Of a stretch of DNA of 64,000 nt, positions 20,184-61,324 are shown piece by piece. The stretch comes from Cavia porcellus (taxonomy: Eukaryota > Chordata > Mammalia > Rodentia > Caviidae): the NCBI RefSeq assembly GCF_034190915.1, contig NW_026947488.1, positions 4,660,501 to 4,724,500 of the forward strand, given 5' to 3'. Numbering within the stretch: position 1 is the stretch's first letter; the number at the start of each line of letters is the position of its first letter. The notes under the pieces were generated by a model. The model was not told where the DNA came from and searched no databases. It saw nothing but the letters and a program-made list of their open reading frames with translations. The position numbers and the translations under genes are program-made.

Positions 20184-20379
20184 CTGGACCTGCAAAGGGC
20201 CAGAGACTGGGTGGCACAGGGTCCTTGGCACTCAGCGGGATCAGGTAGAGGTCCTTGATCCGCCTGTGGGTATTAGCGACGACCCCAAAGCGGCCACAGC
20301 TGCTGAAGTAGTAGTAGAGAGAGGTGTAGGCCCCCTCTTCCTCCGAGGTCACAGGCTGAAAGCAGATCAGACACAGCTC
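20184..20379 (-). CDS. DIDO1-like: DIDO1-like exon 11: end of SPOC domain (1014-1078)
   Basis: Acceptor 'gctttgtcttgcag', donor CCAG|GTAAGA (strong). Encodes ELCLICFQPVTSEEEGAYTS, FSSCGRFGVVANTHR and KDLYLIPLSAKDPVP. The next DIDO1 exon is absent nearby. Reading into the intron would add a short tail (KSLPRGRSL...) ending near 20,134. That would give a DIDO2-like product, but this is inference. Confidence 0.82.
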
Positions 20380-23300
20380 CTGCAAGACAAAGCACGCCAG
20401 AGCCTTCACTGGGCTGCCACTAGCCAGCCCAGTCACAGGCTGTGCCTGAGCCTCCCACATAAGTCCTGGTGATTCCCACTGTCATTTTCTGTCTCCCGGT
20501 TCAGTGTGCAAAAGTAAAGAAATGTAAAGAAAACCCAGGCTCATGCTTCAGGCTTTCAAAGCAAAACCTCACTTTTGGCCCGAAGCTCACTATGCTCCTT
20601 CCCCTCCACCCAGGTCGGGTCGCACAGGGCCCTGGCAGCAGTGAGGCATCGGCATGCAGGGCCCACCAGCAAGCAGGGCCCACACAGAGCAGCTGTTACT
20701 CCGCACGCAGGGATCACGACAAAAGAGACCTGCAAGGGGCGCCAGCTGCCTCCTTGTTACAGGGTGAAGCCGCACAGGACTGAGAGGATCGTCCTTCCCA
20801 TGAACCAGATGCAAACCCCAGGCCCAACTCAGTCTCAGGGGTACCAGGGAAACAAAGCCAGTTCAGGGCTCAGGGCAGCAGCTGAGCCCAGCCTCCTCAT
20901 CATTCCCTTTACCAGCTGTCATGAGAGTGAGAGAGACACAGTGCGTGTAATTTTTACCAAAACCAAATTTGCACACATTTTTATATGACATCAGAAGCAA
21001 ACTCATATTACTGCAATATTCAAACACACCACGAGGTACAGCATCTTCACAAATTTAAGGGTTTCATTTTAAACCTGTAGTAAGTTCCAGACTGATAATT
21101 CAACTGTTAGCCCAGCAGAGAGAGGATATACAAGACAGACTGGAACACTTTCTCTGACTGTTGCAGACAGCTGCAGATACCTTGGACACGGAAGACTGGA
21201 GCTTGCCGACATAATTCCACACTGTCTCTGGCACAATCCTCCCGCCGATGTGAATCGTATCCGGCAGGTCCTAAACAGGAAGGACTCGGAGTAAATGGAT
21301 AATAGGGGATTTCAGCACACAAAACCCCTCCAAACTCAAGAAAACCACAACTAGTTCAAGGCAAGTGGCGCCAGCTTCACATTTGTGTTTGAGGTGAACG
21401 GTTAAACACCACCAAGGATTAGAAGCTGCCTTGCCCAAGGGTGGTGTGATGTCTGCCTGCGTCCAACAGGGCCACCATCAGAAGGTCACTTTATGAACAC
21501 AGAATAATGCTTTGTGCATTAGCCAGAAGGACTGACCAGTTGCTTCTGGCCGAGCTCGCCATAGCCAGGGTCACTATGCTTCCTTTCGCGAAGCAGGAGC
21601 CTGCTGCACTGAAAGCTGGGAGTACACGCATTAGGAAACCACAGCTGAAACCCAGTCAGAACACCTGGGTTCTGCCTCTTTGCACTGCATAGCCTTCTCC
21701 TCACCGCAGCAACTTCTACTCCACCCGGAGAGGCGCACAGAGCAGGAGATGAAGTGTGACAGGCAGGCTTTGCCCGCCCACGGGGTCCCCTAGGACATGC
21801 TCGCAGGGGCATATGCACCCTGGGTTCTCACCTCACTGACACAAACAGAACTCCCAGAGACAGGATACGCCTTAGTAACAAATTTGCCTATGCTCTCCAT
21901 GTGAATAAGGCCTTTCCAGATGCTGCTGAGGGGAAACGAAGGCAAGGTCCTGTCTCCTATTCGGGGGGACCGTGACTCTGAAATGCTGCTAAATAAAACC
22001 ACAGCAAAACACTGTCAATCTTTTTGTTCAGTGGAAATCACAAAAAGGTGAAGACAATATATTTACAAGCAGAAGTGAATCCTGTTCATTTGCTAACTTA
22101 CCTTAGCCAAGAAGTTATTGAAATCCTTATAGTTTAGAAACTTGGACAAAGAAAGTAAACTGAATATATAGTCAGCAAATCATGATGATCACATGACTTC
22201 AAATTTCAGTTTGTACTGTTTGTCCCTTCCATACAGTGATTAGGTGCCTGGTGGGAGCCTCGGTGTGAACTGGATTCTGGGGCAAACTTCAGACTTGTGT
22301 TTCACTGCCACCTTCCCCTTGCTCATCTCAAAGAAACCACAGGACCCTGGGCAGCTCACACCCAGCCGGGCACCCACCTGACACCTGGCGACGGTGGAAC
22401 TGACAGATGCCTCAGGTCCAGGGACGAGGTTGGCTTGACAAGTATGGATTTGGGCAATGTCACAGAGAGTACAGCAGGCTTTGGCAGGCCTGGTGTGGCT
22501 TCAGTTATATGGGTGCTGTCCAGGTGGTTTTCAGCAGAGGCCATGATAGTGCAGGACCTACCCACAGCAGTCCTGGGGTCACGGTTGGACACTGTGACTG
22601 CGGTGACCACCCCATCTGGGCAGCTGGGGAGGACTTTGAGTGGGGAGGGTCTGGCACCTCGGTCCCCTGGAGGCCCAGTGACATACTTTCTCTCTGGCTT
22701 TGGGCCAGAGGCCCTTCCCAGGTGTGACTCTGAGGCAGCCACTGCAGATCCTTCAGCAGATACTCGAGAAACCCGATCAGGCAGGGAGCTTCCAGGCTGG
22801 GATTTTAAGTCCTCTTGCTTGGCAGAAGGTGATATTTTTTGTTTTTTAGGACCTGGTTCATCTTCAGATGGAACCTGATCTGAAGAAAGCAAAAACAGAG
22901 TCAGTGAGAAGGGCAGTGCCATCACAGCCTGCTGTTGAGTAAAGTGGCTTCTTACAGGCACCAAAGGCACAGGATGAAGGTAGGGTGAACTCTAGAAAAC
23001 CATGTCAGCCTTTCTGATTGTTTCACGTAGGCCTGAATCAGTGATTTTAAACAGAATCAAGGCTTCTTGAGTTTTGAAAGTTCACCCCAGACTATGCTCA
23101 CCTGTACAAATCTTGTAGTTCAGAGCAGAAAGGTGGGCCGGGTGCTGGCTTGTCTGACCCTTCGACCTCCCGCCAGGGCCACCAAGGAGAGGCGCTGCAC
23201 TCTTCACATGGACAGCATGTACTGATCTTTGCTGCTCCTCAAAGAAAAAGGGGAAAATGACCAGGTCGTTTCCTTTCCCCGTCATGTCCGAATGACTGTG

Positions 23301-26300
23301 CACAGGAAGTAGTCTTATAAGAACCGCTGGAAAAGAGGTGGCACTGGGTGCAGGTGCTGGGACCGTCAGAGCTAGCTCCCACACACACCTGTCTTGGTTC
23401 AGTGTTTCCCCTCCTCACTGCAGACCCTGCAAGCACTAGGAGGGGTTAAACTTACTGTTCCTGCCACTGCTAAGGTCCGCAATGCTTACATCCCAATCTT
23501 GTACAGATGGAAGATAGTCTACCTCAGGAACAGTTTCAGCTTCATGGTGATTTTTTAAAATTTGTTTTGTTTTTTGTCTTTTTGAGACAGGGTTTCACTA
23601 TGCAGTTCAGGCTGGCCTTAAACTCTTGAATCCTCCTGCTTCAGCCTCCCAAGAGCTGGGGTTACAGATGTGCGTTACCACATCCAGCCTCATGGTACCA
23701 TTCTTGGATCATTCTTGCTGTCACATAGGGACCTGGTCCCCAAAATGATAAACACAAAATCAGAGCCTTAAACCCTGAGCTCAAAACAAAGAGCAGATGA
23801 TGCTGAACAACTGAGCTTCCAGAGACTCATATGGCCGTTTGCCATCTGCACTCACATACCTTGTTGGCCTGTCTTTCCATGTGGAAAGCTGTTTAGACAC
23901 TAATTCCTCTGGTGTCCTTCTCGGGAGTTCCTCCAGAATTTTCTTTGCACATTACTCAATTGAAGTCCCTGTAAACCACTACCTTTCCAACCACTACTGA
24001 AAAACGCAGTTATTTGCTAATTTGCAGCGATGTGGGTAAGCGAAGTAGCACAGATGGTGTCAGAGAGTAAGGGCCACAGGGCCTGCAGAGGGCAGTACTC
24101 AGCCACACCCTGGGGGGATTCCCTCCTGCTCCCCAGCAGCCTCTCAGAAGGAAGCACCAGCCTGGCCCAGCTGAGAGCTGACTTCATGGCCACGCTGCAT
24201 GGACTGTGCTGAACACCCAAAGCCTCAGAAAACAGACCCCAGACCCACAGTGGAAGACAAATCCAAAGGGACTTGGGAAGAAGGCAGGAAGAGGTCCATC
24301 GATCCGCCTGGCCTTGCTGACATGAGAGGTGCCCTTGATCCCGGTTCTAAAGCACAGGCAAGTAGCACTTTTCAGCCTTCTTTTTTAAACTTGTACTTAG
24401 ATACAGTTTGGAAAAGTACATCCATTATTACAACCCAGATGACATTGTTTGGTGTGAGTTCTGACAGCTGTCACAAGGAACATTATGATACTCAGTTTTG
24501 CGTGATGATGGTTAACACCTAAGTTTGAGTCTAAGACTAATGGGAGATTGAGAGCATAGGACAGCGGTGGCGAACCTGCAGCACGTGCACCACAGCAGGC
24601 TGTTAGTTTTTGTGGAAAGCTCTAAAAAGTTCGCCATCACTAGCGTAGCATGAGAGCAATTCCAGCTGTCCTCAGTATTTCAATTTCCACGTGTCACGGG
24701 GCAATGGATTTTTTTTTTTTAAAACATCTATGATGAGAACAACAGGTCCAGATTTGAACATGTCTTAATGTGTTTGGCTCATGCTTATTTAAATGTACTA
24801 GAACAGTATGAGATTAAATCTCCACAGGTTTCATTTTAATTAGCCTTACGGCTTTCAAAAGATACATAAATAAAACACAGGGAAGGACTCAGACTCAAGG
24901 AAGGAACCCAGGAAAATGGCCCTGGCAGGAGGTTTGCGGGCCGAGCTAGGTTGGGGCTCATCCTCCCTCCACAGGCTGAGGCCTGCAGCTCGGGAAGAAG
25001 CCTCAGCTACTGGACAGTAAGCAGATGAGGCATAAAAGGTGGCCTGGGGCCTGCAGCCATAGCAGGGACACTTCGCTCACTGGGACACATCTCAGACTTA
25101 TTGAGGCCCCATGATGGACTGTGGTGATGCTTAGGGTCTGAGTGATTGTGGTGGTGCAGGGCCACCAAGACCCACACAGGACAGCCAATGAGCCAGGAGG
25201 GGAGGGACCTGCAGGGGAGGACATAGATGTCCTCGAGTAGGACATCAGGTGTGCGCATGACCCTCAGCAGGCAGCAATCAGATGGCTCCTCCCTCCCGAG
25301 CCACACACCTGGCGCTCAGCACCCTGGAGGTGGAGAACAACGCTGCGGTGCTCGCTCCTGTAGCAGGGGTCCATCCCTGGGAACACATTAAGCATCTCCT
25401 TCTCAAGGTGGAGGGCGGCTTTCCCACCCTCACTTTCTGTCACGATTAAGTCTCCACTGTCACAGACTCTGAAGGGAGTGGGAAAAGGGCCACATCAGCC
25501 AGGCATCTGCAGTCCTGTGGTTTGTAAAGTGGGGCAGTTGTGAATGGGAGCCCCCTGTCCACAGCTGAATGCAGGCGAACAGCCCACCTTTCCCTCAGCC
25601 TCTTCTGTAGGCAGCGCCTTGTGCTTTGGCAAATCTGCGACTCTGGTGGGGACCAGGCAGCACCTGAAGCCATAAGGTGTCCAGGGGCTGCGGAAGCCAT
25701 GGGGCCTGAAGTCACCACAGGTCTTCTCTTGGCTTCCAGCATTTCCAGATCCCTTGCCCGAGGCCTGGATACTGGACCCCCCTGCCTGGCCTTAGAGGAG
25801 CAGCCTGCTGGGGCCCCCGAGAGCAGGGGCCTCTTGGGGATGGGGCCCCCAAAGCCTGAGGGTGACTTCTTAATGGTCGGTTTGGCTCCAGTCACATTCA
25901 CGAAAGGATGGGGCTTCTTCAGCAGATGTCTGCCCACTGGGGAGCCTGGAAGGGTCATGGTCTCTGCACTATCCGTGCTCCTGGGGTCCCTTGGGGCTGC
26001 GGAGCAGAACACAGAGATGCTGGGTGAGACAGGGCAACAAAGCACACTCGGCAGAAGTCTCACAGTGCTTCCCAGGCATTGCTATGGTGCACTTCCAGAA
26101 GCATCCAAAAACCTTAAAATTCAGAAAAGCATTGCAAGCCAGGGCTGCCAGCAGTATTTATGACAGTAACTACACTCTCCGTCTATACTCTCCCCAATAA
26201 ACCACAGGGCTGGGTCATATGTGTCCTTTAAAGCTTTTGCATCAGCCAGAGAGATAATCATCTTGGACCTCATTTCTTCACTAAGCTATAAAATTAAAGG

Positions 26301-29300
26301 AGAAATTTCAGCTCATCAAACACAAATATAAGTTTCAAAAATCATTTCAGGTCGGGACACGGGTCCACTCCTGTTCCCACTCATTCTTGACCCTAGGGGT
26401 CCTAGAGGCAGGATCCCTGTCAGCACAAGCATCACCTGTCACCTCACTGTCCTGGACGTGGCTCTTGGAGACCATATTTCCACACCAAGACGCAGGTGAA
26501 GAGAACACCGTGAGGCTGCTCTACTGACGACACACGCAACTCTGCAGCTGCAATTTCCTCAGCCTGAGGAGCTGATTACCTGGTGCTTTTGACCGGCAAG
26601 AAAGGTCACCAGAATATCAACAGAAAACAGGGAAAATCTCCCAGCTAGAACCAAATCCCACACATGTCAACACAGAATGACACACGAGGCTGTCCCAGAA
26701 CACTGGGGAGGCTGGTCCACAGTCCTGGATGGATAGTGCCTGTCCTTCAAACGGAATGCTGGGTAAGAGTCCAGGACCAGAGCTACTGAGGATGCCCAGG
26801 AACAGAAGGCCTGTCAGTATTTTTGACATTGTACTGTTAAACTCTAAAGCTCTGAGACTCTTACAGAATCTCAAGCAAACCTCTATACACTTGTGCAGTA
26901 CGACCTGAAGCAAATCATGAGCAACAGTGAACCCTGACCTTGTTTCTGGTCACAAACACATGTGGGCTTGAAATCTTTGGCGTCTACTCTCAGTGGGAAG
27001 CTTTAGGATCATGTTCAGTGACATGAAGTCTCTACTGGCCTAACTGTATTTCCCTTCTTACTCAGGCAAAATCCAAGTCGATAATGTATTTCCAGGACAC
27101 ATCCATATGATGAAGGCCATCAATTACCCCAGAGGGGTCACCATGCCGCACAGGGGATGTGGCTCCTTAGCCAACAGGCTCTGGGTCCACGAACCACTGG
27201 TTTCTGCTCCTTTGAACCCAATGTTTTGTGACTCCTTGCTTGGGCTTCAAACAGCAATATGTATAATTAAATATAATTATAGTACATATACTATAGTACA
27301 CAAATTATTTGCAAAAAAGTGAAATCTGGGGTGATGCCAAGAGACAGCTGCCTCCAGTTCACCTGCTTTGTGGTACACATCCAGCCTTCTTCCATACAGA
27401 GGGAGGTGTTTAAAACACACCGAGAATTCTACACAGCAACAGCCGAAGGTCCTCATACACCTCTGCCGCTGAATGGGAGCCAGGCTGCAGTATGAGGCCT
27501 CAATGACAGTAAGAAACTCCTTTCCTTTTCTGAGTGAGTAAATCTGCAGTGCTTCTCCCCATTGTTTTTCCCTCTGTTGTTCTGTGTTGCAGGGGACTAA
27601 ACCCAAGGACTTGTACATGTAAGGGAAGGTGCCTCCCACTGAGCCATAACCCCCAGCCCCACACAACAGTCTCCGTGTGTCCTCACTTCTAACACCAAAA
27701 AAGGTTCCAGGAAGCCAGCAGCAGATCTTTTGCAGTCTGAGCCTCCAGTTTGCATCTGCATGGGCCCTATCCAGGTGGCACTGTGCACCAGCCTGCACCA
27801 CGCAGAGAGGGGCAATGCTTGGTGCCCACAGCCAGACACACATGCCTGCAGAGCAGCTCCCCCTTCCTTTGGCTCCCCCCGCCTTGGCCCTGTGGGAAAG
27901 AAAGCACTGCTCTAAGGCTTAATACTACAAGGGATGGCAGCCAAGGAGCCTGGGCTGTGGCCTCAGACAAAACTCGGGCTGCCAAGGCTGGCCTTTTGCC
28001 TGGATATCCCATCATCCAGGGTAGAGCCCAACACAGCTGGCCGCTGAGCACAGTATCAGCATCACGCAGGAATCAAGGGTCTCCTCACACCAGAAGGTCA
28101 GAGTGTGGGCTATTACGCCATCAGTCGGTCACTGGGTGGTATCCCAGGCCACAGGAACAAAGTGGGTAGAATATCTGCACTCCCCTGGCCATCAGCCAGA
28201 CCCCATCCAATTGCCAAGATGGAAACTGCATCAGGACAGGCAGCAGGGCCTCTGAAAACAGGGATGAGATCCAGAACCACAGCCCCATTTGCCCCACCAC
28301 ATGTCCAGGGTCTCCATCCTCCAGGGCACCTCACAAGCAGTCAACTGGTAAAGAGCAATGGAGCCAAACTCTTACTTTACAATGGCAAGAGAAATCTGCC
28401 CAACCTTAAGCGAAACAAATTAAGTACATTTGCTTCTCTAGCTTTTGCAGCTGAAACTGTAACCAGCTGTGTGTGGATAGGTAACAAATACAAAAAAAAA
28501 AAGTCCTCATTATGATAATTTTATACACATGGGTACAATATTGAGGCACTATAGGAGGTATCTCCAGAGGGCACCTTTGTACTGGACGTCCCTGGCAATG
28601 CTGTCCCATTTTCCTGGAGGATGGATCTTCAGGGAGTAACAGAGGAGATGCGCAGTGTGCAGGAAGGCCGTGGAGAGCTGGTGAGTTCAGGGAGACAAAC
28701 CCTCTGGAAACATCCACCCTCACACCTGTTCCCAGCAGGTAGGGGACAGCTGCAGGACAGACTGGCAGGTTGCCTGGCCCTAGGGAGGGGCTCGCTTGGC
28801 CCATCCAAGTTCACAGACAAGTGACCTAGTTTTCTGAGCAGTAAGTTATTTTCTTTAAATTTACAACAATTAAAATAAACACCCCAAAACAGTGATGATG
28901 TAGACACCCAAGAAAAATCCAGCAATTAACACAGAAATATTTGCTAAGTCGATTCCTTTATCAGCACAAATTTTGTCTAATTAGGAAATTGGTTTGCACA
29001 TAACATTTAGTTTTCACTCATTTTATTCTTTTGGTAACTCCTGCAAAGACAGAAAAATGGCTGTACCAGCTGGTAAAACATGACCTCCAGTCTAATTCAG
29101 ATTTCTAGGTCAGAGAGTGGCATTCTCTCTCCCAGGTTATAGCTTTCCCATGTAAGTACCAAAGGGAATTTGTTCCTCTTAAGATCTCAATCACCCATGC
29201 CCTGGGCCTACAGCCTGAGTTCCCCCTAGAAACCTGTGCTCTGCCCTTCAGTTCCTCACATCTCCAGGACTTTCTTCTGTGTGATGAAGGGTCACCCAAG

Positions 29301-32300
29301 AAACGCTTTGCCTGGGTTACGGGCACAGCAAATCACTGGGACGGCCCACATACTATGTCGTTTTGCCTTTTCATCTCCATGATGATACTGAATGCCTTCC
29401 TGGTTTAAATTGTTCACATCCCCACTTAGGGGGTCCAAACCACCATAGACTGTGAGTAGAATGGAACATCACTGAAAAATCCTAAGGCAGGAGTCTTTAA
29501 AGAAGAAAAAACATTTTGGCCCACTTAATGCCTTACCAGTCATGGGGAGGGAGAAACAGGGAAATCCTAGAGGAGTAAGGGTACACAGCCCAGCAGGGGT
29601 ACTGTGACCTTGGAGAGGGCAAATGCTGTTACCGTGAGCTGTAAACTCATACAGAAATCCTGGTACATGGTGTAGAGGACGACAGAGATGCAGCAGGAAT
29701 CACACACCTGGTGAGAGGAGCGGCAAGGTCCACCGCTTCCCATGTGGCCCCAGGGACTCGGGGGACAGGGTGCAGATGAGGCTCCACCATGAGGAGCTAT
29801 GATGGCCGCTCTGCCATGCGGTTCTTCTCATATGGATACGTGGAGCTAGAGATGGGTCAACTCCCGAGAAAGCAGGCTACATGTGACTAGAGTTGGCTTC
29901 TTCTGAACCTCATCACCCACCCGCCCAGCCTGTGAGCCTGCAGGCAGCTGGGAAAGCAGGGCCAGGGCTGTGGGTGCTGCCCATCCCTCCTGCCCATTGG
30001 GCCAAGGAGATCGTGCACTGCCACCCCACAGGTGCGGAAACATTTGGACAGCAGAGGGGCACAGACATGCTTCTGCCCTTTGGACTGCTTTACCGGTCTC
30101 CTTACCATCTTCTCAGTCACTGTTGTGGAAGATGACATTTCTGGGACAACAGAAAACTCCAGAAGCCAACAGCTCCAAGTGTGTGTGCCCCTCGTGCACG
30201 CCATCATCCAGATGCCCATCAGTTTCAAGTTAAGAGATGTGCGTGTGCTGGGAACACTGTTCACTTGCTTATTTGTCCCAACTTCCTGCCAATGGAGCCT
30301 GTGAACTGAAGACCCACTGTGCAAAAGAGGAGCAAACCTCCCACCCCTGTGCAGAGAAATGGGTTCTCTATGATGCCGTGAGCTTCTCTTTGTTTCTTGG
30401 TTCCCCTTGAAGGTGGCATGGTGATGGCAGAACCTAATATTCCCCCCTCCCTCATCCACCCTTCCCACACACAGGGTCTCCCACATGACCCCTCGAAGTT
30501 TCAGCAGGCTTTGCACTCTCATGCACTCATGGGGCTGAACCCAAATTAAGCCCATCACCCAGGCATTCTGGCTGCGGTCAAACACTCAAGCGTTCCCTGC
30601 AGTGTAATGTGCCTGTCACGGCGGCCCGTCATACTCTCAACATGCAAGCAGTGCTCAGGTCTCAGTGTTCATTCCTCTATAGAGGAGCTACTATAGAGCT
30701 GCTCTGTTAGCATGGAGTTAGTACCTGTTAGCATGGAGTTCACTGCTTAATCCACCGTTAGTAACGTGTACTGAGCTCCATCAAAGTACAGCTGCTGGTG
30801 CATTTGATTACAGTCCTTGTGGTTCCATCTGCAGTCCTGGGCTTATGGATTTTAAATTCTTAACCAGGTAACACCTAGTACCTACCTGCATCAGTCCCTG
30901 CCCCCAGGTGTTGTATGACAGGCTGAGAAAATAGGGCATGTACTCCAGAACGCAGGGGTACTCTACCAGGTGGTATTTTATAAAAGGACAAAATACACGG
31001 GAGCAGTCGTGGTGAACCTTTTAGAGCTCTCAGTGGGACAAACAGCCTGTTGTGGCACCTGTGGCATAAGGCTGTCGTCACAGCCCTAGAGAGAGGGAGA
31101 CAGCATAAACAAAACCTGATCCAAAACCAGGTCTACCAGATAATAAAATGTGCTCTGTGCATCCTAATCCGAATATTTAGAATTCAGCTTTGAATCATGA
31201 GACAGAGAAACAAGGACAGGTCCAAGCTGTGTGATCTAAACTGTGGATTCACACACCAGCCTGAAGTATCTTCATTTCACTCACTGCAAACCTGGGCCAG
31301 GGTTGCAGCCTGAACACTGCAGAGGAGCCAAGATCTTCCCGACACCCCTGACGCCATGGCTCCCCCTTCAGCAAGCACACTGCTCTCTGAGTTCAGGACC
31401 ACACCCACTCTGGTGCCTTAGCTCTTTCTGCTCACTTTAGTGATGCGTAATGTGTGAAAATCTGTGTGAACCAAATGTCTGTTGTCAAGTCAAAAATTCC
31501 ATGGAACTCTAAAACTGTACCAAAGCTATCTGACTAGTTTGCACAGAGATGCCTGCAGCATGGCAAAGGAGTAATGGGGAAAGCTCGGTTTCTGTGCAGG
31601 GTCACGATGAAGTGAGCTCAGCAGCAGTGGATCTGTGCCTGGGTCAGGCCCTGAGGGACCCGGGTTTGCTGGATATAATACAAGCACTCGCCAGAGCCTG
31701 CCCCCTGCACGTAGCAGGACACTAAGAACTGCACCCCGACCAGGAGCATTAGTAGCGAGGCTTTTCTTTGGCTAACACTGGAAGGGCCACAGGTGAGGGA
31801 TAGTCAGTCAGGCTCTGGAGTAGCCCGGGACACAGGCATCTGCTTTGGGCTAATGGTGATGAGCGTCCACACTGCACTAAAACATAGCCTCAACTGCCCA
31901 TCCCACATACCCCCGTGGCCATCCAGAGTGCAGGTGGCACACAGAGGCTCACATAGGGGGACACCTACATTTGCTCCAGCACAGTGGGGAGGGAGCAGCA
32001 GTCTTCTGCGGCACTGCAGCGCTGGCCTGGTGGTTGCTGGCTCGGGAGGGCATGCTGCTTTTGTTGGCTGCCTCCTTCCCCATGGTGTCGCCCCTAGGAG
32101 TTATCATTGCCTTCTTCACCGGGTTTTCGATTTCATCTGGAGGTGGCCGCTTGTGCACAGAGGATGTTGTAACCCCTGCCTGGATAATCAGTAAAGCCCA
32201 GTGGTTAAGGTCAGAAACCTCACCTCTGCTGTCGCTTACACAGCAGTTAATGTCACAAGACTACTTTCGTTCACCTTCAGACACCTCCTCCACCCTGGGC

Positions 32301-35300
32301 CGCTACAGCTGCTCCTGTGGTCAAGACTGCACACTTGGGGTCCTCACATTCCCACTGAATGCTGCAGAGCTCAGGTCTCTGGGTCACAGAGCTGAGATGG
32401 AATATCCTTCTGCAGACATCTGTCTGCTGGACAAGAGGACGGTGAGCCACTTGAGTGATGCAGAGGATTGAGCCCTGGCATGGTGCAAACGGCCTGCGCG
32501 GGTGTCAGGATGCTCTCAGCCCCAGAAAGGTGCTGGGATGCGCAAGCAAGAGGAAGCAAATACCATTTTACTCCTAGATGGAAACTCTGGAGGTTTAGAT
32601 GCTGAGGGAAAGTCTTGAACCTTTGGTCTGCTGTTCCCTGACTCTGTGTTCTGGCCCTGACCTTTGGCAGCTGTGGGATTCTAAATGAGAAGCCTTCAAG
32701 TCAAGGCATCCAAGGCTAAGCAGGCAACAGGCGATGCACGGGATCACGAGAGCAGGTAGAGGCAGGATTTGGACAGTCCACACAGGCCAAGCACTGACGG
32801 TTGTTTCCAGATGAGCTCAGGATAACTCGTGACTAACACAAAGCTCCTCATTTTGAAACATCCCTGATTCTTCTAGATCACAGCTAGAAAAAGTAGCATC
32901 CTGTCTGGGACCTACCTACCCTCCTGCGTCACATACAAACACAAGGGGTGGTTATGAGTACCCAGATGGCGTTGGCGTTGGGAATCCTGCATGGCCCTTA
33001 TTCCTGCATGGTGGCCACTTTCCTGCACTGCATCAGGTTAACTGAGCTGTCAGCTAAGGGCAGGAGACAGAGGTAAAGGGCATGGGACCTGCATGACACC
33101 TGCAATGCCCATGTTATACACCTTCAGTAAATAAGCACAGAGACACAGGACACACACTGTCACACACATGGCTGTGTCAAAGGTCCCAGTGGTCACCTGG
33201 CTCAGCTCACCTGCACACTAGGCTTTGGGGGATGGAGCTCTCTGGGCTTCATCTTGGACTTCTTCTTAGGCTTCAGCCTGCGTCCTTTCTGCACACTGAG
33301 CAATCTCATAGCTGCTGCTGCGTGCTTGAGAATGCAGTTGTTGCTGCAGTACACTGTGCCAGGCTGCGCCACACTGGAGCACCCAGGGCCCGCGCAAGGC
33401 ACAGCGCCAGGAGCCACTGTGACCTGCAGAAGCCAACAGGAGGCATCAGACGATGGGCACCATGCGGGCATGAAATGTACCTTGTCACACGCTATGAATG
33501 ACACCAAGGTTACATCTGTGAGAGACTCTCTAACAGTAACTTTCAACGCGAATAGAAATCATCTTTGTTCAAGCAAACTGCACATCTTGTCCGCTGCACA
33601 GGGCACCACTGTGTAACCACTCCTGCAGCTCATGCTGAGTGGGATGAGAAGGCTGTCGCTGTGCACACACTCTGCAATTCCCTCCCCTTCAGCTTGAGCA
33701 CCACTGAGGACATCTGGGGACCAAATGGCAGCCCACCCTGGTGAGACAACGTGGAGTCGCAAAGTTGAGACTTAACCAGGTAAAAGTCTGACAGGAGGCC
33801 CTGGGCCTGGAGGGACATAAGAGGCCCTGGCAGAAGGTGGGGCTGAGGTGGTTAAGACAGGAGCACAGGGATGACAGGGATGACAGGGGCTCCAGAAAAC
33901 CAGTGATGATTCTTCAGTACCACCGTCACCAAGGCGGCAGGAACGCATGCTCTGCACGGGCGAGGGCTCCAGGAGGGACACCTCCCCAGCAGAGTCTCCA
34001 ACCCCAGTGGCGCCCCATGAGGTCTCGGGCCAGCTCAGCGGTCCAGGCTCTGAGCTGGGGACATGGGGCCTTGGTGTGTGGCCTCCAGCTGTACCTTGGT
34101 GACTCCTCACAGAGCACTGGCCCATGAGGAGCAGTATGCCTGCCCACGCCTGCTGACCAACCCTAAAGCTTGTCTGAAGGTCCAGGCCACACAGCCACCC
34201 CTCACATTTCCCCAGGGAACATCACATCAGCAGGGCACAGGGTTCTGCACCAAAGCCCAGTCTCTGAGTGACACATCGGCTTACGTGGGGCAGGTCAAAC
34301 TATGATGCTGAAGACAGAAAACTGGGGACCCTCCCTTAGTAAATGGGTGCTACCAGAGGACACCACGTTTTCAGGCAGTCGCTCTTAATACGTCCTCCCT
34401 CTGGTTTGCAGTGGCCAGGACCTTGCAGCCTCAGTGTGCAGCACACACACGGCGAGCTTGGCAAGGCAGAGAGGCTCAGAGACATGGCCCCCCCTACCTC
34501 ACTGTCTCTGTGCCTGCCGGAGAACAGGCAGGCAGCCAGGAGCCCGGGATGGCTCGAGGCGAACTGCGCTGAGTCGGCTGTCACACAACTGGACCAGAGA
34601 TACCGCAGTGGCGGGTAGCTCTCACCAGCATTGCTGAGGGCAGCAGATGTGACAGCCATGGCCAGGAGGGAAAGGACATGCAGGCAGTGACCCCCTGGCA
34701 GGGAAAAGAGGCACTGAGCCAAAGAACACATGCAAAACACACAGGACCTCAAGCCCAGGCAGAGGGGCAGGTGTTGGCATAGTAACTGGGAGAGTAAGCC
34801 ATGGGGGACCACATGTGTCACCCCATAACTCTGGGAGGCTGAAACAGGAAGGGCATGAGCTCGAACAGAGCCTGGACACAGACCAGCCTGGTGAAATCTG
34901 CCTCAGAACAGAAACGGAAGAAGGGGCTGGGGTGGGCTCGGTGCTGAGGTCCTGCAGTCAAGTCTGAGTCCTGCAGGAAAATGTAGCCAACATTCATAAG
35001 GAGGTCAGCAACCTATTTGTCCTAAGGGCTCTTTTGGGGCCCGTGGCACTGAGCAGGAATTTGAGAGAAGGACACTTCCTTGTGGGCCTCCCCAGGCCAC
35101 ACCCCTTGCATGGCCAGCAAAGCCAACTCGGGAAGAAGGGAGGACCCCTTTGGGCTCTGGCTTTCTGTTCACGGCCAGTCCGCCATGGGCAGGGCTAACC
35201 CTGCACACTCCCAGGGCTTCCAGATACTCACAGGCGAGGCCGTCCTCGCGGGCTTCTCACCGCTGCAGCTTGAAGTCTCCTCACTTCCGCCCTGGCTCCC

Positions 35301-37068
35301 CTGCTTGGCACAGGCACTCTGCGTGCCTGGCCCGCTGCTCCTGCGTTCTATGTCCTCAGCACCTCTGGGTCTGCGCCCAGGCTCCTGGTCATCGGTGGCT
35401 TCTGCAGTCCCCTTGTGCTGGGTTTGCAGGGTAGTGCAGGCTGCACAGAGGTGATCGTCCCTGTTCTTCTCCAAGGGCTGCCCTCGAGCCTCAGAAACAC
35501 CCACGCAGTCACCCAGGAACCACTCCTCACAGCGGTCACAGAAGATTACCACCCTGAGAGGACAAAGCGGTGTCTCAGGACGGGGAGGGAATGGCGACAA
35601 TCACTGCCCAACAGGCTGGGAGGCCAAACCGGCCCAAGCACAGGTCAGTGACGTGTGCGTCCTTCCCCTCCCTTTCAGTCACATGCAACCAGCCTGCTCC
35701 GTCATTTTCTCCACCGGAAATTTTTCACAGTGAATTCGTGGCTTGTGTGTGTGCCTGCACACAGCAGCAACACTGCACCATCCCCAACAGGTCCACAGGG
35801 CACCCGAGCCTCCCGGGCACCTGTGCCAGCACAGGCCACATGGGCACCATTGGGTCTTCACTCTGCAGGGTCTGGGCTGCCCAGCCCCTGCCCTGGGTAT
35901 CTGGAACGGCAGATGCGCCCACACCACCGATGCAACAGCCCTGGATGCAGGTAGCTCTAGGATGGAGCAATGAGCTCTGCCCGCCGTCTGCTGCTCAACA
36001 CTGGAACTAAGCAAAAAGTGTTGCTGGTGGCAGCAGCGTGGAGGGCTGGTGGCAGGCAGTCATCTGCACTTCAGCTTCTGTCTCTCCCCCAGGGACTGTG
36101 CAGCTTTTTCCAGTCTAACTGTGTACCAATCCCACCCGCTGGAGAAGGTATGGAGTACTCTGCCTGGTAGGACCCTGACTTTTTCTGAAAGCCAGCAGGA
36201 AGCTCCCCGCCCATCATTCTGACCCACCTGTTGCTGAGAGGCTGGCAGCAGACACAGGACATGGCGTTGGGGTCACAGCCCTCGCCCTCAGGCTGAGGTC
36301 TGCCCAGGTGCCTGGGGTCTTTGTCTTCAGGTCCCCGTTTCATTGCTGCCTCCAATGCATGCGCTCTGTCATCTGTTGCTGCCTGGCTCACAGCCCTCTG
36401 GGCAGCCTCGGTGTCAGTGTCCAGCTTGCGGGGCAGCGCACTGTGGCCGGCACTGCCTGCCTCGGCCTCTGCAGTGTAGCTGGGGTGCCCCTCCCTCAGC
36501 GGCTTCCTCAGGCGACTGTGGACACCCTGCAGCCGCCCCCCTGCTGCTTCTGGCTCTGGCTTTCCAGGAAGGTGATCCTGAAGTGCTTCCAAAGTGAAGC
36601 CATCACGGACTTCACTGTCCGCACTGTCAGAGGTGCTGCATGGCTCAGCCCATCCTCTGGCCTTCTTAGAAGGGGCGGGGCGTTCCTTCACACAGCGGGA
36701 GCTGGGCACTGGTCCCCTCCTCATCCGGGGGCTGCTCTCAATGTACCCTCCCAAGGCGCTTTGCACAGGGGTCTCCAGACAGGATGCTGGCTCTGTGGAC
36801 TCTTCAAGGGACACAACCACATCCTTTCCTGGTGGCCACACTGTGCTCAGGAACTCCCTGGCCAGCTCCCTGCGCCCTGGCCTCCTGCTGTGGCGCGGGG
36901 AGGGGCTGCACAGCCTCTGCCTGGCAGAGTTCCCCTCCTTGTCCCCAGCGCCCTTCCGCTGTGGGGCCAAGATTCTCCGGCTCCCCCAGGTCTTCCTGAA
37001 TTCTTTCCTCAGGGGCTTGCTGGCCTCAGATGTGTCCTCACTGCTCTGGTCCCCCGCATCATCCATGC
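20184..37068 (-). CDS. DIDO1-like: DIDO1-like paralog, 11 exons, intact 1,078-codon frame (3' end not found)
   Basis: Spliced minus-strand gene with coding start at 37,066. Exons: 37068-36228, 35553-35232, 33423-33211, 32179-31969, 25996-25588, 25468-25309, 23237-23102, 22879-22378, 21988-21832, 21270-21181, 20379-20184. All introns begin GT and end AG, all phases match, and no stop or frameshift occurs. Order of domains: acidic/basic N-terminus, PHD finger (about 265-320), Cys-rich zinc module (397-421) with a basic stretch after it, TFIIS-like domain (about 648-718, C-terminal half absent), and SPOC domain (about 950-1,070). DIDO proteins read H3K4me3 and bind RNA polymerase II in the nucleus. 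This copy has diverged heavily from the conserved mammalian protein (PHD His lost), so it is a paralog rather than the DIDO1 ortholog. The architecture resembles the middle-length DIDO2 isoform. Whether it is expressed is not visible. Confidence 0.8.
21181..21270 (-). CDS. DIDO1-like: DIDO1-like exon 10: SPOC domain (984-1013)
   Basis: 90-bp symmetric exon. Acceptor 'cttcctgtttag', donor CCAAG|GTATCT. Encodes DLPDTIHIGGRIVPETVW, then NYVGKLQSSVSK. This is the best-conserved exon, with few changes against DIDO1. Confidence 0.84.
21832..21988 (-). CDS. DIDO1-like: DIDO1-like exon 9: start of SPOC domain (931-983)
   Basis: Acceptor 'gtggttttatttag', donor GTGAG|GTGAGA. Encodes SESRSPRIGDRTLPSF, then the first SPOC strand and helix, SIWKGLIHMESIGKFVTKA. 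SPOC domains bind phosphorylated Ser motifs, such as those on the polymerase II CTD, by family knowledge. Confidence 0.82.
22378..22879 (-). CDS. DIDO1-like: DIDO1-like exon 8: Pro/Ser-rich linker (764-931)
   Basis: Acceptor 'gtttttgctttcttcag', donor GTCAG|GTGGGT. Encodes QVPSEDEPGPKKQK, KQEDLKS, GPPGDRG, GVVTAVTVSNRDPRTA, SVTLPKSILVKP and HLSVPPSP, each matching a DIDO1 block in order. 166 complete codons without interruption. Confidence 0.82.
23102..23237 (-). CDS. DIDO1-like: DIDO1-like exon 7: linker with KICTG block (719-764)
   Basis: Acceptor 'cccctttttctttgag', donor TACAG|GTGAGC. Blocks EQQRSV, SAAPLLG, TSQHPAHL and NYKICTG match DIDO1, where the last reads with a Cys in place of Tyr. 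The DIDO1 exon(s) that should precede it (second half of the TFIIS domain and a Ser/Asp-rich linker) were not found between 23,240 and 25,300. Confidence 0.75.
23562..23692 (-). mobile_element. B1-like SINE in a DIDO1-like intron
   Basis: The plus strand shows the inverted 7SL-derived body 'gagacagggtttcactatg' through 'ctggggttacagatgtg', preceded by a T-rich stretch that is the reverse of its A tail. It lies between exons 6 and 7. Confidence 0.75.
24562..24642 (+). mobile_element. hAT-type MITE, copy 2
   Basis: 81 bp with terminal inverted repeats 'cagcggtggcgaacct' and 'agttcgccatcacta'. Flanked by GCATAGGA (24,554-24,561) and GCGTAGCA (24,643-24,650), an 8-bp target duplication with two mismatches, the length expected for hAT transposons. 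Lies in the exon 6-7 intron. Confidence 0.75.
25309..25468 (-). CDS. DIDO1-like: DIDO1-like exon 6: TFIIS-like domain, continued (665-718)
   Basis: Acceptor 'cccactcccttcag'. The codons align without gaps to DIDO1: VCDSGDLIVTESEGGKAAL, HLEKEMLNVF, YRSEHRSVVLHL. Donor CCAG|GTGTGT. It ends on a codon boundary, so skipping to exon 7 keeps frame. Confidence 0.82.
25588..25996 (-). CDS. DIDO1-like: DIDO1-like exon 5: linker and start of TFIIS-like domain (529-665)
   Basis: Acceptor 'tgtgttctgctccgcag'. Conserved blocks are AKPTIKKSPSGF, GPIPKRPLLS, and QICQSTRRCLQKRLRER, the last being the first helix of the TFIIS central domain. Donor AAAG|GTGGGC splits the same Arg codon as in DIDO1. The plus-strand frame 25,540-26,163 is antisense shadow. 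About 6 kb of intron separates it from exon 4. Confidence 0.82.
27592..27662 (-). mobile_element. ID-type SINE, inverted, in intron
   Basis: The reverse strand reads 'ggggctgggggttatggctcagtgggaggc' in pieces and ends in a B-box-like 'gtcctt-ggtttagtcccc'. It is a tRNA-Ala-derived ID element, diverged. Confidence 0.65.
31004..31083 (-). mobile_element. hAT-type MITE, copy 3
   Basis: 80 bp, inverted relative to copies 1, 2 and 4: 'cagtcgtggtgaacct...' to '...ggctgtcgtcacag'. It shares the interior 'ttttagagctctcagtg'. Flanks CACGGGAG and CCCTAGAG agree at 5 of 8 positions. Confidence 0.65.
31969..32179 (-). CDS. DIDO1-like: DIDO1-like exon 4: Lys/Ser/Pro linker (459-529)
   Basis: Acceptor 'tgattatccag'. 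The exon opens AGVTTSSVHKRPPPDE and continues with MGKEAANKSSMPSRASN and KTAAPSP, each with a DIDO1 counterpart in the same order. Donor AAAT|GTAGGT. Joining to exon 5 restores Ser529 and the frame, which supports this unusual donor over nearby alternatives. Confidence 0.78.
33211..33423 (-). CDS. DIDO1-like: DIDO1-like exon 3: Cys-rich zinc module and basic stretch (388-458)
   Basis: Acceptor 'ttggcttctgcag', donor GTGCAG|GTGAGC. The module reads CAGPGC, then YCSNNCILKHA: Cys397, Cys402, Cys413, Cys417 and His421, all as in DIDO1. The basic run LKPKKKSKMKP (about 435-447) is a likely nuclear localisation signal. No gaps against DIDO1 within the finger. Confidence 0.82.
34810..34985 (+). mobile_element. 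B1-ID (B4-like) composite SINE, in intron
   Basis: A B1 fragment ('ctctgggaggctgaaacagg' ... 'gaccagcctggtgaaatctgcc') is followed by an ID-like half ('ggggctggggtgggctcgg' ... 'agtctgagtcctgc'). It lies between DIDO1-like exons 2 and 3. Confidence 0.5.
35232..35553 (-). CDS. DIDO1-like: DIDO1-like exon 2: rest of PHD finger (residues 280-387)
   Basis: Acceptor 'tttgtcctctcag'. The split Arg codon is completed and followed by VVIFCDRCEEWFLGDCVG. Zinc ligands Cys285, Cys288, Cys296, Cys316 and Cys319 are kept. Position 293, the His of C4HC3, is Leu (codon ctg). The Tyr expected just before the first CxC is Ser270, while Trp291 remains. A Ser/Glu-rich linker follows. Donor CCT|GTGAGT at 35,232. 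Confidence 0.82.
36228..37068 (-). CDS. DIDO1-like: DIDO1-like exon 1 of the coding part (residues 1-280)
   Basis: The acceptor 'cctccctcttcag' is followed by GC and the start ATG at 37,066 (MDDAGDQSSEDTSEASKP). DIDO1 also begins with an MDD motif and a KEFRKTWG block, here KEFRKTWGSRR. The exon encodes a charged, low-complexity region and ends inside the PHD finger with the first zinc pair (Cys271, Cys273). The donor is CAG|GTGGGT at 36,228. Upstream in-frame codons reaching 37,126 are intronic and not used. The long plus-strand frame at 36,308-37,072 is antisense shadow. Confidence 0.82.
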
Positions 37069-40000
37069 CTGAAGAGGGAGGCAATCGCACCTTGAGCACA
37101 AACCCCGAGTTCCTCCTCGGGTGCACCCTGATGCCTGGTGCCTGCTTGGGGGAAATAGGAACAGCAGGAAATCAAACGGATCCCTACTGGGAAAGGTGCA
37201 GCTGTACATGAGCTGTAGGCTGCTGACCTCCTTGCCTAAGCAGTGGCTGTGAGGCAACCCTGGGCGAATCTTGAACTTTAAGAATATAGCAAATGCTCAG
37301 TGGAGAACAATCCAGACTCCCAACACCACACAGTGCCCCGCTCACCTGCCTAGGACCTGGTCTGCCCTTGGGAAGAGGGGATGAGGATGCAATTTCCACA
37401 GTGCGGCCAGCTAACACCCAGGGCCACCTGGAGGCCCCGCCCCTCCCATGACAGGGAGCAAGACTGGCCTTGCCCACAAGCACAGGGCGTCCAGCACTGG
37501 GCCACTTCTGTGCCCACTGCAAGAACGGGCCAGGTCCCTTCTAGCTCTGGAAGCTGTGCTCAGGGCCCTATGCACCAGACTACAGGGGGCTGAGAGTGGA
37601 CATAGCCTCAGGCCATCGAGGGATCAGACAGCCCACTGTGGAGCATGGGCTGTGAGGCAGGAAATGGTCTTTAGTCCCCTCTGTGCTTGGACGCAGACAC
37701 TGCTTCAGCCTCAATTCCGGGCCTCTGTTTCACTTTCTTTCTGCAACACTAAAGCGTGTGCGCCAGACTTTTACTCCTGCTTAAAATGACAGAAGTAGAA
37801 GAAAATGGTACATACCTGGATGGGTCCTTTCGACCCTATCCAGCTATCAATCACACATCAATGCTGATTATGTTTCTGATTTTATTCCTCGCTCCATCCT
37901 AGGGGGTGGACTGGCAGGCAATGATACCCTAAAAAGTCAAAATACATAAAACTGAAAATTCAGAGCACTCATTTCTTTCTCCCTGTGGCACTCTATTACT
38001 AGTGATACACGGCGCCTGCGGGTGACCTCTTCACGCAAGCCTGAACCACTCTCAAAGTCAGCCAGAGGCTGCAGAAGCCAGGAATGCATCACAGGATAGA
38101 GGAAGGGGGCCCACCGCTGGAGGGACACTGCCCAGTTAAGGCAGGGGAGAGAGCCCCATCGTGGGCCCAGAACCCGCGTGTGAGGCGTCCAGCACAGGGG
38201 CCCTGAGCTACTCTCTCCCAGTAGGGCTGGTTCAGTTCCACTGCTATGAGGCACTGAGAATGGTTCCTTACAGACACAGAGCACAGAGCCCCAGGACAAC
38301 AGTCACCACTGCCAAGTCACTGCCACCAGAAAGCCTTTCAGGGGAACTCTTCCTGCTCATGGAAACCAACAGTTTGTACCAAATTGTTATTTTTCTAAGG
38401 TGGTGCAGGGGCTCACACCCAGGGAATAGAGCTCACTAAAAACACACTCTGTCACACCCCAGCCCAGAGGGACCAAATCGAGAAGTACCCTGAAGAGGGT
38501 CGAGTGCTGTTCTGCACAGAACACTGAGTTTCTTCCAGAGACACTGTTAGAGGGGCCCCATCAGGCCTTGGGGAGACGGCACTGGGTGCACACAGACAGG
38601 ACCCCAGGAAGCTCACTGACACTGCATCAGGGAATGGCTTCCTATAAGGACAACCCTCTTCTGTAATCCACCCTCATCAGAGAGAGGAAATGTGAGCACT
38701 AATAAATGTGAGCACTAATATTATCACCAGAATGGGGACTTAGAATATACAGCTGTGAGCACTGATAAAGGAATCCACCCTCCTCAAAGGGGGCACACAC
38801 AGTATACAGGCATAAACAAAAAATAAGTAAAATCCACCATCATCAGGGATGAGACTCACTGTACTTAGGGGTGAACACTAAAAAAACACCCAGTGGAAAA
38901 AACATGAATCAGATTAGGAGATGAATCAATGTTCCAGCCATTGCCTTGGGTGATGCTGGTGGCATTTCAAACAACCAGGAAGGCTCCTTGCATCTGGTTC
39001 TTTGCAAAGAATGTGACTCTGAAGGTGGAAACACAGACACTAACTCGTTGCTACTTCTTAATGGGACTGGCTCTTTACCTGTCCCAGCACTGAGTACATG
39101 GACAACACCTCCTCAAATCCTCAGTACAACAGGAACCAGACTGCCAAAGCGGCCTGGTCCCGCCCACAGCGAGGCCTCTGCTCTTCAGTCAGTCACCACT
39201 GGCCAATGAGAGGGCACAGAGCCCCAGACAGTGCAGAGGTCCTCCGGGAGAGCACCTACGGGAAAGAAAATGTGTCACAGCCCTCAGGTAACACCGATGA
39301 AGGAAAACTAAAGGGAGATGCAAACTTCCCAAGTGCTCCACTATGCCAGTGACTGACAGGCACATTCAGGGCGTCTGGAAATTGTGGAAATTGTCCACTT
39401 CTGTCTTTGAAGGCCTCCGGCCAGTAGGAGACATGCCAGGTACATTCAAGAGGGGACCAGGTCAGCCCAGGGCCTAGAAAGTAGCCCCCACAAACCTCAA
39501 GGGTCAGGAATTGGGCAGCAGCCTCTGCCCCAGTAGAGCCTGCTCATGAGGGGACCCAACTCAGGAAAACTCAACTCGGGCATGAGACAAGGGCCCAAAA
39601 TAGAAAGCACATGGACAAAATGATGTCCACAATTATTGTAAACCTCTTAACACTGTGGCTACAGCATCACTTAGTGGACACCCTATCAGGAGTTTTAAAA
39701 GCCAGTGTTTATGGTGACTAAATCTCCCTGGGGTGGCGGGAGGGGCGGGGTGGGGCTTCTCTGTGGAAGGAAGGACACTGCTCCTCCCAGATGCCTTAGG
39801 ACAGCCTGGGTCTAAACACTCCCTGGGGATGCCGCTGGAGCCACATTCAGGGGATTTATCTCTCCACCACTTAGGCCCCACAGCCTCTCTCCTGAGCACA
39901 GCCCACCTCTTACCTCTCCCTCTGTCTGGCTCCAACTGGCCTGCCCTACCTGGGGCTCCCTAGTGACCTCAGACAATGGACAAACATTCCACCTCCCTTT

Positions 40001-40300
40001 AAAGGGACAGCGACCACCCAGGCTTCACCCAGGCCTGAGCCAGACCTTGGGCTGACCCAGACATGCCTCTGACAGCCACAGGAGCCCATCACAATCTCAT
40101 CAGGACCTACATGTGGTCATGGTCAGAGTTCCCCCTCCCCTTCCCCACTTCAAGGATTCAGAAAGGAGCCTGCAGTGAGATGAAAATGAGCAGACCACAT
40201 ACCAGGATCCCTGAGCTTCAGAGAAGGAAATTCAAAGTTAGAAATCCTTAGCCAGGAGTTCCTACAGCAGAAAATCACAGAGATGTCAGATAAGCCACCT
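37069..40300. other. Upstream intron sequence without recognised genes
   Basis: No exon or named repeat recognised. It is G+C-moderate up to about 40.1 kb. The minus-strand ORF 39,633-39,935 and others are unsupported. A degenerate tandem repeat is listed separately. Confidence 0.5.
38664..38885. repeat. Degenerate tandem repeat
   Basis: Three decayed units beginning 'aatccaccctcatcag' (about 38,666, 38,770, 38,830), each followed by a 'gtgagcactaa' or 'gtgaacactaa' block. The spacing is irregular (about 60-105 bp). Confidence 0.45.
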
Positions 40301-55341: not shown

Positions 55342-55664
55342 GAAACCCGAATGACTCATCAGTAGTGAATCTGCAAATGGTTTCAGAAGAAAACGACAAA
55401 CGACAAGATTGCCAGAATATACAAATTCACCTTAGCCAAAGAGGGAAGGGTGGGCTGCCACGGTGAAACAACGGTGCTGCGATTACGTCAACAACAAAGC
55501 AAAGTTGGGAGCAAACAACCCTGCGCAGGACAGGGGCCATCTTCTAACTCAACCGGGCCACTCGGGAGCACGGGAGGTGCGCCACTATGAGGAGACTCGC
55601 GCCCTCCTCCACGTGGACCCGACCCGCGAGGCACAGAAAAGCGCGAAGCGCCGGGACAGCCCAC

Positions 55665-55784
55665 AGCCCTCAGCCCTCAGCCCTCCGCGCTCATCCCTCT
55701 GCGCTCCGCCCTCCGCCTTCGGCCCTCGGCCCTCCGCCCTCCACCCTCCGCCTTCGGCCCTCGGCCCTCAGCCCTCGGCCCTCC
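55665..55784. repeat. GC-rich heptamer minisatellite
   Basis: About seventeen 7-bp units of the type ccctcag / ccctccg / ccttcgg / ccctcgg in direct array, inside the CpG island. The regular alternation of variants suggests higher-order duplication. Confidence 0.85.
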
Positions 55785-56070
55785 TCAGGGCCCGCGGCCT
55801 TCCCCCGGCGGCCCCGCTGTGGGCCAGAAGTTACAGGGAACCGAGTCACACGCGTGCCCTCAGCCAGCTGTCCCGGGAGCGCGGGCCGAGCGCCGCCTCC
55901 TCCATCGCGGCCCCGCCAGGCTCGACGGGCTCGCCCCGCGCCGCGTTCCCGCCGTCCGCGCTGAGGAAATGCGCGGGCGACCCCCGGGCGACGACGCCGA
56001 GCGACGCGCACCAGGGACCTGAGGGGCACGGCCGCGATCCGCTCACTCAAACGGCCGCGCGCCGCCCAGC

Positions 56071-56080
56071 GCGCCTGCGC
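56071..56080 (-). promoter_or_regulatory. NRF1-type site
   Basis: GCGCCTGCGC fits the palindrome-like NRF1 core GCGCMTGCGC, common in TATA-less CpG promoters. Confidence 0.45.
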
Positions 56081-59165: not shown

Positions 59166-59194
59166 CCAGGCTCCTTCTTTCTCTCTCTGTTTCT

Positions 59195-59598: not shown

Positions 59599-59599
59599 C

Positions 59600-61318: not shown

Positions 61319-61324
61319 TGACAC

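Follow-up and report, generated by a model that had tools for sequence, protein, structure and literature searches.

The question raised by this locus is whether a run of DIDO1-like exons in the guinea pig (Cavia porcellus) is a working gene or the relic of one. The window analyzed is a stretch of 64,000 nucleotides, for which an initial annotation had described eleven DIDO1-like exons with an open frame.

Gene Model and Exon Structure of the DIDO1-like Copy

Using splice-aware alignment with the guinea pig parent DIDO1, the eleven exons were recovered at the place described, on the minus strand. The earlier description of GT/AG at all junctions, with zero stops and zero frameshifts, is confirmed across the eleven window exons, which total 3,232 nt in the present model and 3,235 in the earlier one. 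Their tblastn E-values range from 2.6e-7 (E9) to 1e-48 (E1), far beyond chance. The exons in the window, numbered after the parent, are as follows.

36228..37066, minus strand: exon 1 with the ATG (parent exon 1), 48% amino acid identity to the parent
35232..35553, minus strand: exon 2, encoding most of the PHD finger, with Leu in place of the His that binds zinc, dN/dS 1.19 to the parent
33211..33423, minus strand: exon 3, from alignment to parent DIDO1
31969..32179, minus strand: exon 4, from alignment to parent DIDO1
25588..25996, minus strand: exon 5, from alignment to parent DIDO1
25309..25468, minus strand: exon 6, leftover part of the TFIIS-like domain, from alignment to the parent
23102..23237, minus strand: exon 9, NCBI start 6 bases further in
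22378..22879, minus strand: exon 10, from alignment to parent DIDO1
21832..21985, minus strand: exon 11, start of SPOC, from alignment to parent DIDO1
21181..21270, minus strand: exon 12, SPOC, equivalents of R1096, K1108 and K1115, 87% amino acid identity to the parent
20184..20379, minus strand: exon 13, where SPOC ends, with counterparts of Y1139, R1145 and K1157, dN/dS 0.21

The copy extends to the left beyond the window, and the gene is incomplete within it. The last exon, which supplies a stop codon, is situated at G000:C5:4653064-4652028 (minus), behind an intron of 27.6 kb, and adds 344 whole codons. The full model therefore has 12 exons running from ATG to stop, with 1,422 codons. A terminal-exon fragment at about 58.5 kb of the window was considered as the 3' end of the copy and rejected, since the actual 3' end is encoded to the left of the window; the fragment is a separate relic that contains stops.

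The copy belongs to the known DIDO1 family and is already present in NCBI as an automatic record, "death-inducer obliterator 1-like" (P0001, Cavia), for which an isoform X2 model is also listed. The NCBI model is 1,421 aa long and uses an adjacent acceptor at exon 11. At exon 9 the acceptor in our model is a weak GAG, and that of NCBI is a CAG six bases further.

Probable Skipping of Parental Exons 7 and 8

The copy had also been called intact. The frame is indeed open over 12 exons, but only when the equivalents of parental exons 7 and 8 are skipped, as they are in the NCBI model. Their remnants are still visible.

23855..23968 (borders approximate), minus strand: exon 7 remnant with a frameshift, skipped by the NCBI model, from alignment to the parent
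23490..23575 (borders approximate), minus strand: exon 8 remnant with a repeat over its acceptor side, skipped by the NCBI model
23577..23695 (borders approximate), no strand assigned: SINE-like repeat over the exon 8 acceptor

In the parent, exon 7 spans 117 nt and exon 8 spans 105 nt, each with phase 0-0, so the frame survives skipping both; damage in the copy is limited to these two in-phase exons. The exon 7 remnant retains its AG and GT, and its inclusion would lead to an early stop. The repeat at exon 8, presumably B1-like, is represented by just two copies 80 nt or longer in the searched DNA, and for this reason it was given neither a consensus nor a date. No Rfam family matched the window at gathering thresholds. 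In the alignment, exon 8 is absent in all DIDO1-like rows, and exon 7 is absent too in Cavia, Chinchilla, and Octodon.

Descent of the Copy in Hystricognaths

The DIDO1-like proteins of guinea pig, naked mole-rat, porcupine, chinchilla, and degu group together in a single clade with 100/100 support, which bears out the earlier suggestion of a lineage-specific duplicate. This clade adjoins hystricognath DIDO1 (87/85). The tree thus places the copy in descent from a common DIDO1 ancestor, and the exon-intron structure of DIDO1/DIDO3, with the same exon order and phases, is found in 12 of the 14 coding exons, with 43-87% amino acid identity by exon. In the relatives, the "death-inducer obliterator 1-like" models of NCBI are P0006, P0002, P0024, P0053, P0111, and P0135; both porcupine models are marked LOW QUALITY, and the degu model is divided into two pieces. 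A search of the literature found no description of the hystricognath DIDO1-like gene or its NCBI models.

Parent DIDO1 and a Second Guinea Pig Copy

The parent DIDO1 of the guinea pig is situated at C5:1665921-1696516, 3 Mb from the copy, and has 14 coding exons. A second copy, T, lies beside the parent and has a block in common with the DIDO1-like copy.

33719..40164, no strand assigned: block common to the DIDO1-like copy and copy T, about 91% identical in the main part and 83% at the upstream end

Over about 2 kb of exon, three deletions break the frame of copy T; the DIDO1-like copy has none there. A model in which the two copies are the ends of a 3-Mb inversion carrying TCFL5 was dropped, because TCFL5 (C5:1744467-1754494) sits next to the parent and T. 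Copy T reads as a tandem copy that has lost its middle exons.

Selection on the Open Frame

The initial annotation reasoned that a neutral pseudogene this diverged should have broken frames. Neutral simulation of the DIDO1-like lineage agrees, with a mean of 29.1 stops and no stop-free run among 400, whereas the observed copy has none of the roughly 29 expected under neutral drift. For the time since the split from T, the neutral expectation is 4.2 stops and 11.3 frame-breaking indels, and none is observed in the 12 exons. Together with copy T being broken where the DIDO1-like copy is open, these results support its description as a retained duplicate.

The proposed change in constraint also finds support. 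The dN/dS to the parent is 0.571, with a value of 1 rejected; by exon, it is 1.19 in exon 2 and 0.21 in exon 13. Estimated jointly for the DIDO1-like copy and T, dN/dS is 0.53, and neutrality of both is rejected; taken singly, neither branch rejects 1 (2dlnL 1.16 and 1.50). The joint value alone was used, as the parent is too distant to polarize most of the changes (of 72 codon differences at a single base, 47 are ambiguous). Branch-specific values per exon are erratic, reaching 2.42 for the DIDO1-like copy in exon 14, and a rough dN/dS for the DIDO1-like lineage alone is about 1. The protein evolves about six-fold faster than DIDO1.

Among the length-limited candidates from the protein database, which is not a read archive, no transcript-like protein of the copy was found; the parent has one, P0112. 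This result, and the low-quality or split models of the relatives, would be expected if a long-selected gene were now dying or silent in the guinea pig, with the NCBI model being a homology-guided prediction. The frameshifted exon 7 with sites that look usable, the already gutted copy T, and the loss of the PHD finger and TFIIS-like domain described below point the same way. Against this stand zero lesions in 12 exons where about 15 are expected since the T split, the joint dN/dS of 0.53, and the skipping of the same exons by the chinchilla and degu models. We consider a dying gene unlikely, though it is the strongest of the alternatives.

PHD, TFIIS-like, and SPOC Domains

In the guinea pig copy, the His zinc ligand of the PHD finger is replaced by Leu, so that the set of eight ligands is incomplete, and the domain scores 16.1 bits in Pfam, under the cut-off of 24. 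Of the five species with the gene, four have lost PHD zinc ligands. The TFIIS-like central domain is cut short with the loss of exon 7, and none is found among the Pfam matches listed. Compared with DIDO1, the copy thus lacks the PHD His, has a shortened TFIIS-like domain, and skips exons 7 and 8; compared with DIDO3, it also lacks the coiled coil and the long C-terminal tail.

In contrast, the SPOC domain, which is common to DIDO1/DIDO3 and the copy, reaches 105.3 bits in Pfam and is kept in all five species. Against solved structures, it scores 187 bits with the SPOC of PHF3 and 71 bits with that of SPOCD1. PMC8526623 and PMC9834408 define the PHF3 SPOC residues that hold two Ser2 phosphates of the CTD. 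By alignment with the contacts given there, the four equivalents (R1096, K1115, R1145, and K1157) are all kept in the guinea pig copy, and most polymerase-contact residues are retained across the five species. The R1143 equivalent is Cys in all six rows examined, and K1099, close to a contact Arg, is Glu in the copy. PHF3 has the same four Ser2-phosphate contacts, but the tree and the exon match group the copy with DIDO1, and in Pfam the copy differs from PHF3 in having neither a working PHD finger nor a complete TFIIS-like domain.

SPOCD1, like the copy, combines a SPOC domain with the lack of a functional PHD finger. Fast evolution and PHD loss thereby yield a SPOCD1-like architecture, and with R1143 changed to Cys in 6 of 6 rows they would suit a working gene whose function is other than CTD competition, for example a SPOCD1-like germline role, with SPOC binding another partner. 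However, the SPOC is much closer to PHF3 (187 against 71 bits), and it keeps the critical Arg that, according to PMC9834408, is missing in SPOCD1, whose SPOC does not bind the CTD. Such a function is accordingly improbable, more so than a dying gene.

A Predicted Reader of the Phosphorylated CTD

That the copy was a neutral pseudogene from the outset, with a frame open by chance or by the choice of exon borders, is highly implausible: border choice does matter at exons 7 to 9 and the average rate of protein change is near-neutral, but no simulated run of 400 was stop-free, the junctions keep the parental phases, an omega of 1 is rejected against the parent, and four further species have related models.

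The retention of SPOC in all five species, despite fast change and a zinc finger broken in four of them, indicates a gene that likely works. Our preferred reading, to which we assign a probability of roughly 55%, is that the copy is a duplicate with a complete open reading frame from which a protein is still made, one that is predicted to dock on phosphorylated Pol II through SPOC. Its transcripts would leave out exons 7 and 8, and the protein is predicted to bind the Ser2-phosphorylated CTD through SPOC. It would be unable to read H3K4me3, and would neither bind Pol II through a TFIIS-like domain nor recruit partners through a tail. From CTD binding without these functions, competition would follow: the stripped-down reader may sit on CTD sites in place of DIDO3 and PHF3. 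We propose, tentatively, that hystricognaths acquired from DIDO1 a SPOC-only Pol II reader of their own that competes with DIDO3/PHF3 on the Ser2-phosphorylated CTD, with the finger lost independently in at least three lineages and the CTD grip kept.

In DIDO3 and PHF3, a single protein contacts chromatin, binds Pol II, and recruits partners. A paralogue without the PHD finger, TFIIS-like domain, and tail that keeps a predicted CTD grip would be a natural separation-of-function variant, present in a laboratory animal, the guinea pig, and in the naked mole-rat. The varied PHD lesions beside a conserved SPOC would allow the importance of each module to be tested. The locus also illustrates a duplicate in which protein change has long been near-neutral on average and the frame is still kept.

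Gene Structure of the DIDO1-like Copy

The exon structure was determined with a splice-aware aligner in two rounds on the guinea-pig assembly (3.145 Gb, including the window). A human sequence gave a draft of the parent, guinea-pig DIDO1, and the guinea-pig parent then served as the query for the DIDO1-like copy. The drafted parent matches the NCBI DIDO1 protein P0040 across the first 1,177 aa. The eleven exons claimed by the initial annotation were borne out, with GT/AG at all junctions and exon phases equal to the parental phases. The window truncates the copy, however, and the gene extends beyond it to a twelfth exon on the same contig (C5):

37066 to 20184 of the window, minus strand: eleven exons of the DIDO1-like copy
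C5:4653064-4652028, minus strand: its terminal exon, after a 27.6-kb intron, adding 344 whole codons and a stop
C5:1665921-1696516: parent DIDO1, 14 coding exons
55501-56500 of the window: CpG-rich stretch ~18.5 kb upstream of exon 1 of the copy, containing a tandem repeat of the CAGCCCT type

The complete frame is 1,422 codons in our model. In a protein search, the NCBI protein P0001 (1,421 aa) is 100% identical to the full open frame, and the copy is already in databases as an automatic model. The CpG-rich stretch is a possible candidate promoter.

The frame runs without parental exons 7 and 8, which the NCBI model also omits. In the parent these exons are 117 and 105 nt long, and because both are phase 0-0, the frame survives omission of both. 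The damage in these 222 nt amounts to one frameshift and one repeat insertion: exon 7 of the copy carries the frameshift, yet retains its AG and GT, and a SINE-like repeat spans the acceptor of exon 8. In an alignment of relatives, exon 8 is absent from all DIDO1-like rows. Exon 7 is kept in Heterocephalus and Erethizon a and absent in Cavia, Chinchilla, and Octodon. It is also absent in Erethizon b, which is an irregular model.

The main doubt about the gene is that exon 7 could be included, which would end the protein early, together with the lack of a transcript in the searched databases. No transcript of the copy was seen in protein-database searches, where length limits could hide short fragments. 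For parent DIDO1, the contig P0112 (source "lgn," 3,888 nt) resembles a transcript, and we read it as derived from RNA because its sequence is spliced. In the open-access literature, no description of the DIDO1-like gene occurs in titles or abstract starts among the matches listed, and the only paper matching "death-inducer obliterator 1-like" concerns wheat-rust small RNA.

Relatives and Age of the Duplication

Protein searches found DIDO1-like relatives in Heterocephalus glaber, Erethizon dorsatum (two), Chinchilla lanigera, and Octodon degus, the last as two models that cover the N and C halves and lie on contigs of equal length. In a 22-row maximum-likelihood tree, in which Octodon was represented by the N half, the six DIDO1-like rows form a single clade (100/100). 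This clade adjoins the DIDO1 of Fukomys, Erethizon, and Cavia (87/85), and DIDO1-like and hystricognath DIDO1 together are nested in a group with Ctenodactylus DIDO1 (100/100). Two rows carry flags, Chinchilla for a long branch and odd composition and Octodon for odd composition. The tree is explained by a single duplication at, or close to, the base of Hystricognathi. The path from the node is 0.83 changes per column to the guinea-pig DIDO1-like protein versus 0.14 to guinea-pig DIDO1, an approximately six-fold faster evolution. The two Erethizon copies (P0002 and P0024, LOW QUALITY models) have complete PHD ligands and are read as a further duplication in the porcupine. One Erethizon model lacks exons 5–8.

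A Second, Broken Copy beside the Parent

A search with exon 1 identified three places in the guinea-pig genome: the DIDO1-like copy, a second copy, T (90% amino acid identity), and the parent (48%). T is situated ~5.4 kb past parent DIDO1, ahead of TCFL5:

C5:1701903-1703663: T exons 1 and 2
C5:1722060-1722990: T terminal exon
33719-40164 of the window and C5:1699365-1705144: blocks compared between the DIDO1-like copy and T
57911-61726 of the window, minus strand: a relic, derived from a further DIDO1 terminal exon with its upstream intron

T exons 3–13 were not found from the end of the exon 2 block to C5:1720000, and the next 2 kb to the terminal exon were partly covered. Exon 10 matches only the parent and the DIDO1-like copy, and a SPOC search of the genome gave seven places, none at T. 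Over 2,039 nt of compared exon, T carries frame-breaking deletions of 1, 35, and 2 nt and in-frame deletions of 12, 12, and 9 nt. The 280-aa "death-inducer obliterator 1-like" protein P0137 of NCBI is the broken T terminal exon; the protein begins in a different reading frame, which makes the gene model doubtful.

Divergence between T and the DIDO1-like copy is patchy. Because it is 8–10% outside (5' flank 8.4%, intron 2 10.5%) and 2.6–4.5% across exon 1 to exon 2 (exon 1 4.5%, intron 1 3.3%, exon 2 2.6%), gene conversion between the two over the latter span is likely.

The relic has ~72% DNA identity to the parent and contains stops. It retains a coiled-coil stretch that is absent from the DIDO1-like copies, and it therefore did not arise as a side product of the duplication behind T.

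Selection on the DIDO1-like Copy

The pairwise dN/dS to the parent, proposed as a check in the initial annotation, is 0.571 over 1,415 codons (dN 0.362, dS 0.634), and a value of 1 is rejected (2ΔlnL 55.8). By exon, it ranges from 0.21 (exon 13, SPOC) to 1.19 (exon 2, PHD). A rough hand estimate, with dN split by the tree and dS halved, gives a lineage dN/dS of ~0.97 for the DIDO1-like copy versus 0.17 for the parent. Between T and the copy, the joint dN/dS is 0.53 over 647 codons, and a model with both branches neutral is rejected (2ΔlnL 8.57); taken singly over these codons, neither branch rejects a dN/dS of 1.

The 12 exons of the copy contain no stop and no frame-breaking indel. Neutral simulation of the whole lineage produced a mean of 29.1 stops, with none of 400 runs stop-free. 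Since the T split, 4.2 stops are expected, and 32 of 2,000 runs were stop-free. Non-coding sequence shared with T (4,721 nt) contains 394 substitutions and 37 indels, 29 of them frame-breaking, and at this rate 11.3 frame-breaking indels are expected since the T split.

Retained and Lost Modules

Pfam detects SPOC in the DIDO1-like protein at 105.3 bits and PHD at 16.1 bits (cut-off 24), and TFIIS_M is not among the matches listed. The parent P0040 scores 117.5 for SPOC, 41.5 for PHD, and 102.9 bits for TFIIS_M. All eight PHD zinc ligands are present in every DIDO1 row (16 of 16), and the two DIDO1-like rows of Erethizon have all eight as well. The His ligand is Leu in Cavia DIDO1-like, and several ligands are gone in Heterocephalus, Chinchilla, and Octodon, in a different pattern in each. 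Erethizon falls among the ligand-losing species in the tree, which suggests that ligands were lost independently at least three times. The PHD piece of the copy still matches DIDO1 PHD structures (87.7 bits), and the finger is therefore decayed rather than missing. The DIDO1-like proteins of Cavia, Heterocephalus, Erethizon a, and Octodon (P0135) lack the coiled-coil segment encoded in the terminal exon; the Chinchilla model stops short of it.

Among solved structures, the SPOC of the copy is closest to PHF3 SPOC (187 bits), whereas SPOCD1 scores only 71 bits. In the PHF3 study (PMC8526623), one Ser2 phosphate is held by Lys-1267 and Lys-1309 and the other by Arg-1248 and Arg-1297, pSer5 contacts Arg-1295 and Lys-1260 in a different complex, and Tyr-1291 is conserved. 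PHF3 Arg-1248 corresponds to DIDO Arg-1096 (offset 152), and the copy aligns to PHF3 SPOC without gaps. The R1096A mutation greatly weakens CTD binding of DIDO SPOC (PMC9834408). The copy keeps the equivalents of Arg-1096, Lys-1108, Lys-1115, Tyr-1139, Arg-1145, and Lys-1157. At the position of Arg-1143, each of the six DIDO1-like rows reaching that site has Cys; the Arg-1145 equivalent is His in Heterocephalus, and that of Lys-1157 is Arg in both Erethizon DIDO1-like rows.

DIDO3 contacts Pol II via SPOC, and without its C-terminal disordered region its contact with PHF3, PARP1, and PAF1 is weaker (PMC10689479). In contrast to DIDO3, the copy lacks the C-terminal disordered tail.

The simplest account is a DIDO1 duplicate that has retained a protein-coding role and shed the PHD, TFIIS-like, and tail modules. 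With SPOC kept, the DIDO1-like protein is predicted to dock on the Ser2-phosphorylated CTD; with the other modules missing, it would be predicted to block rather than recruit.
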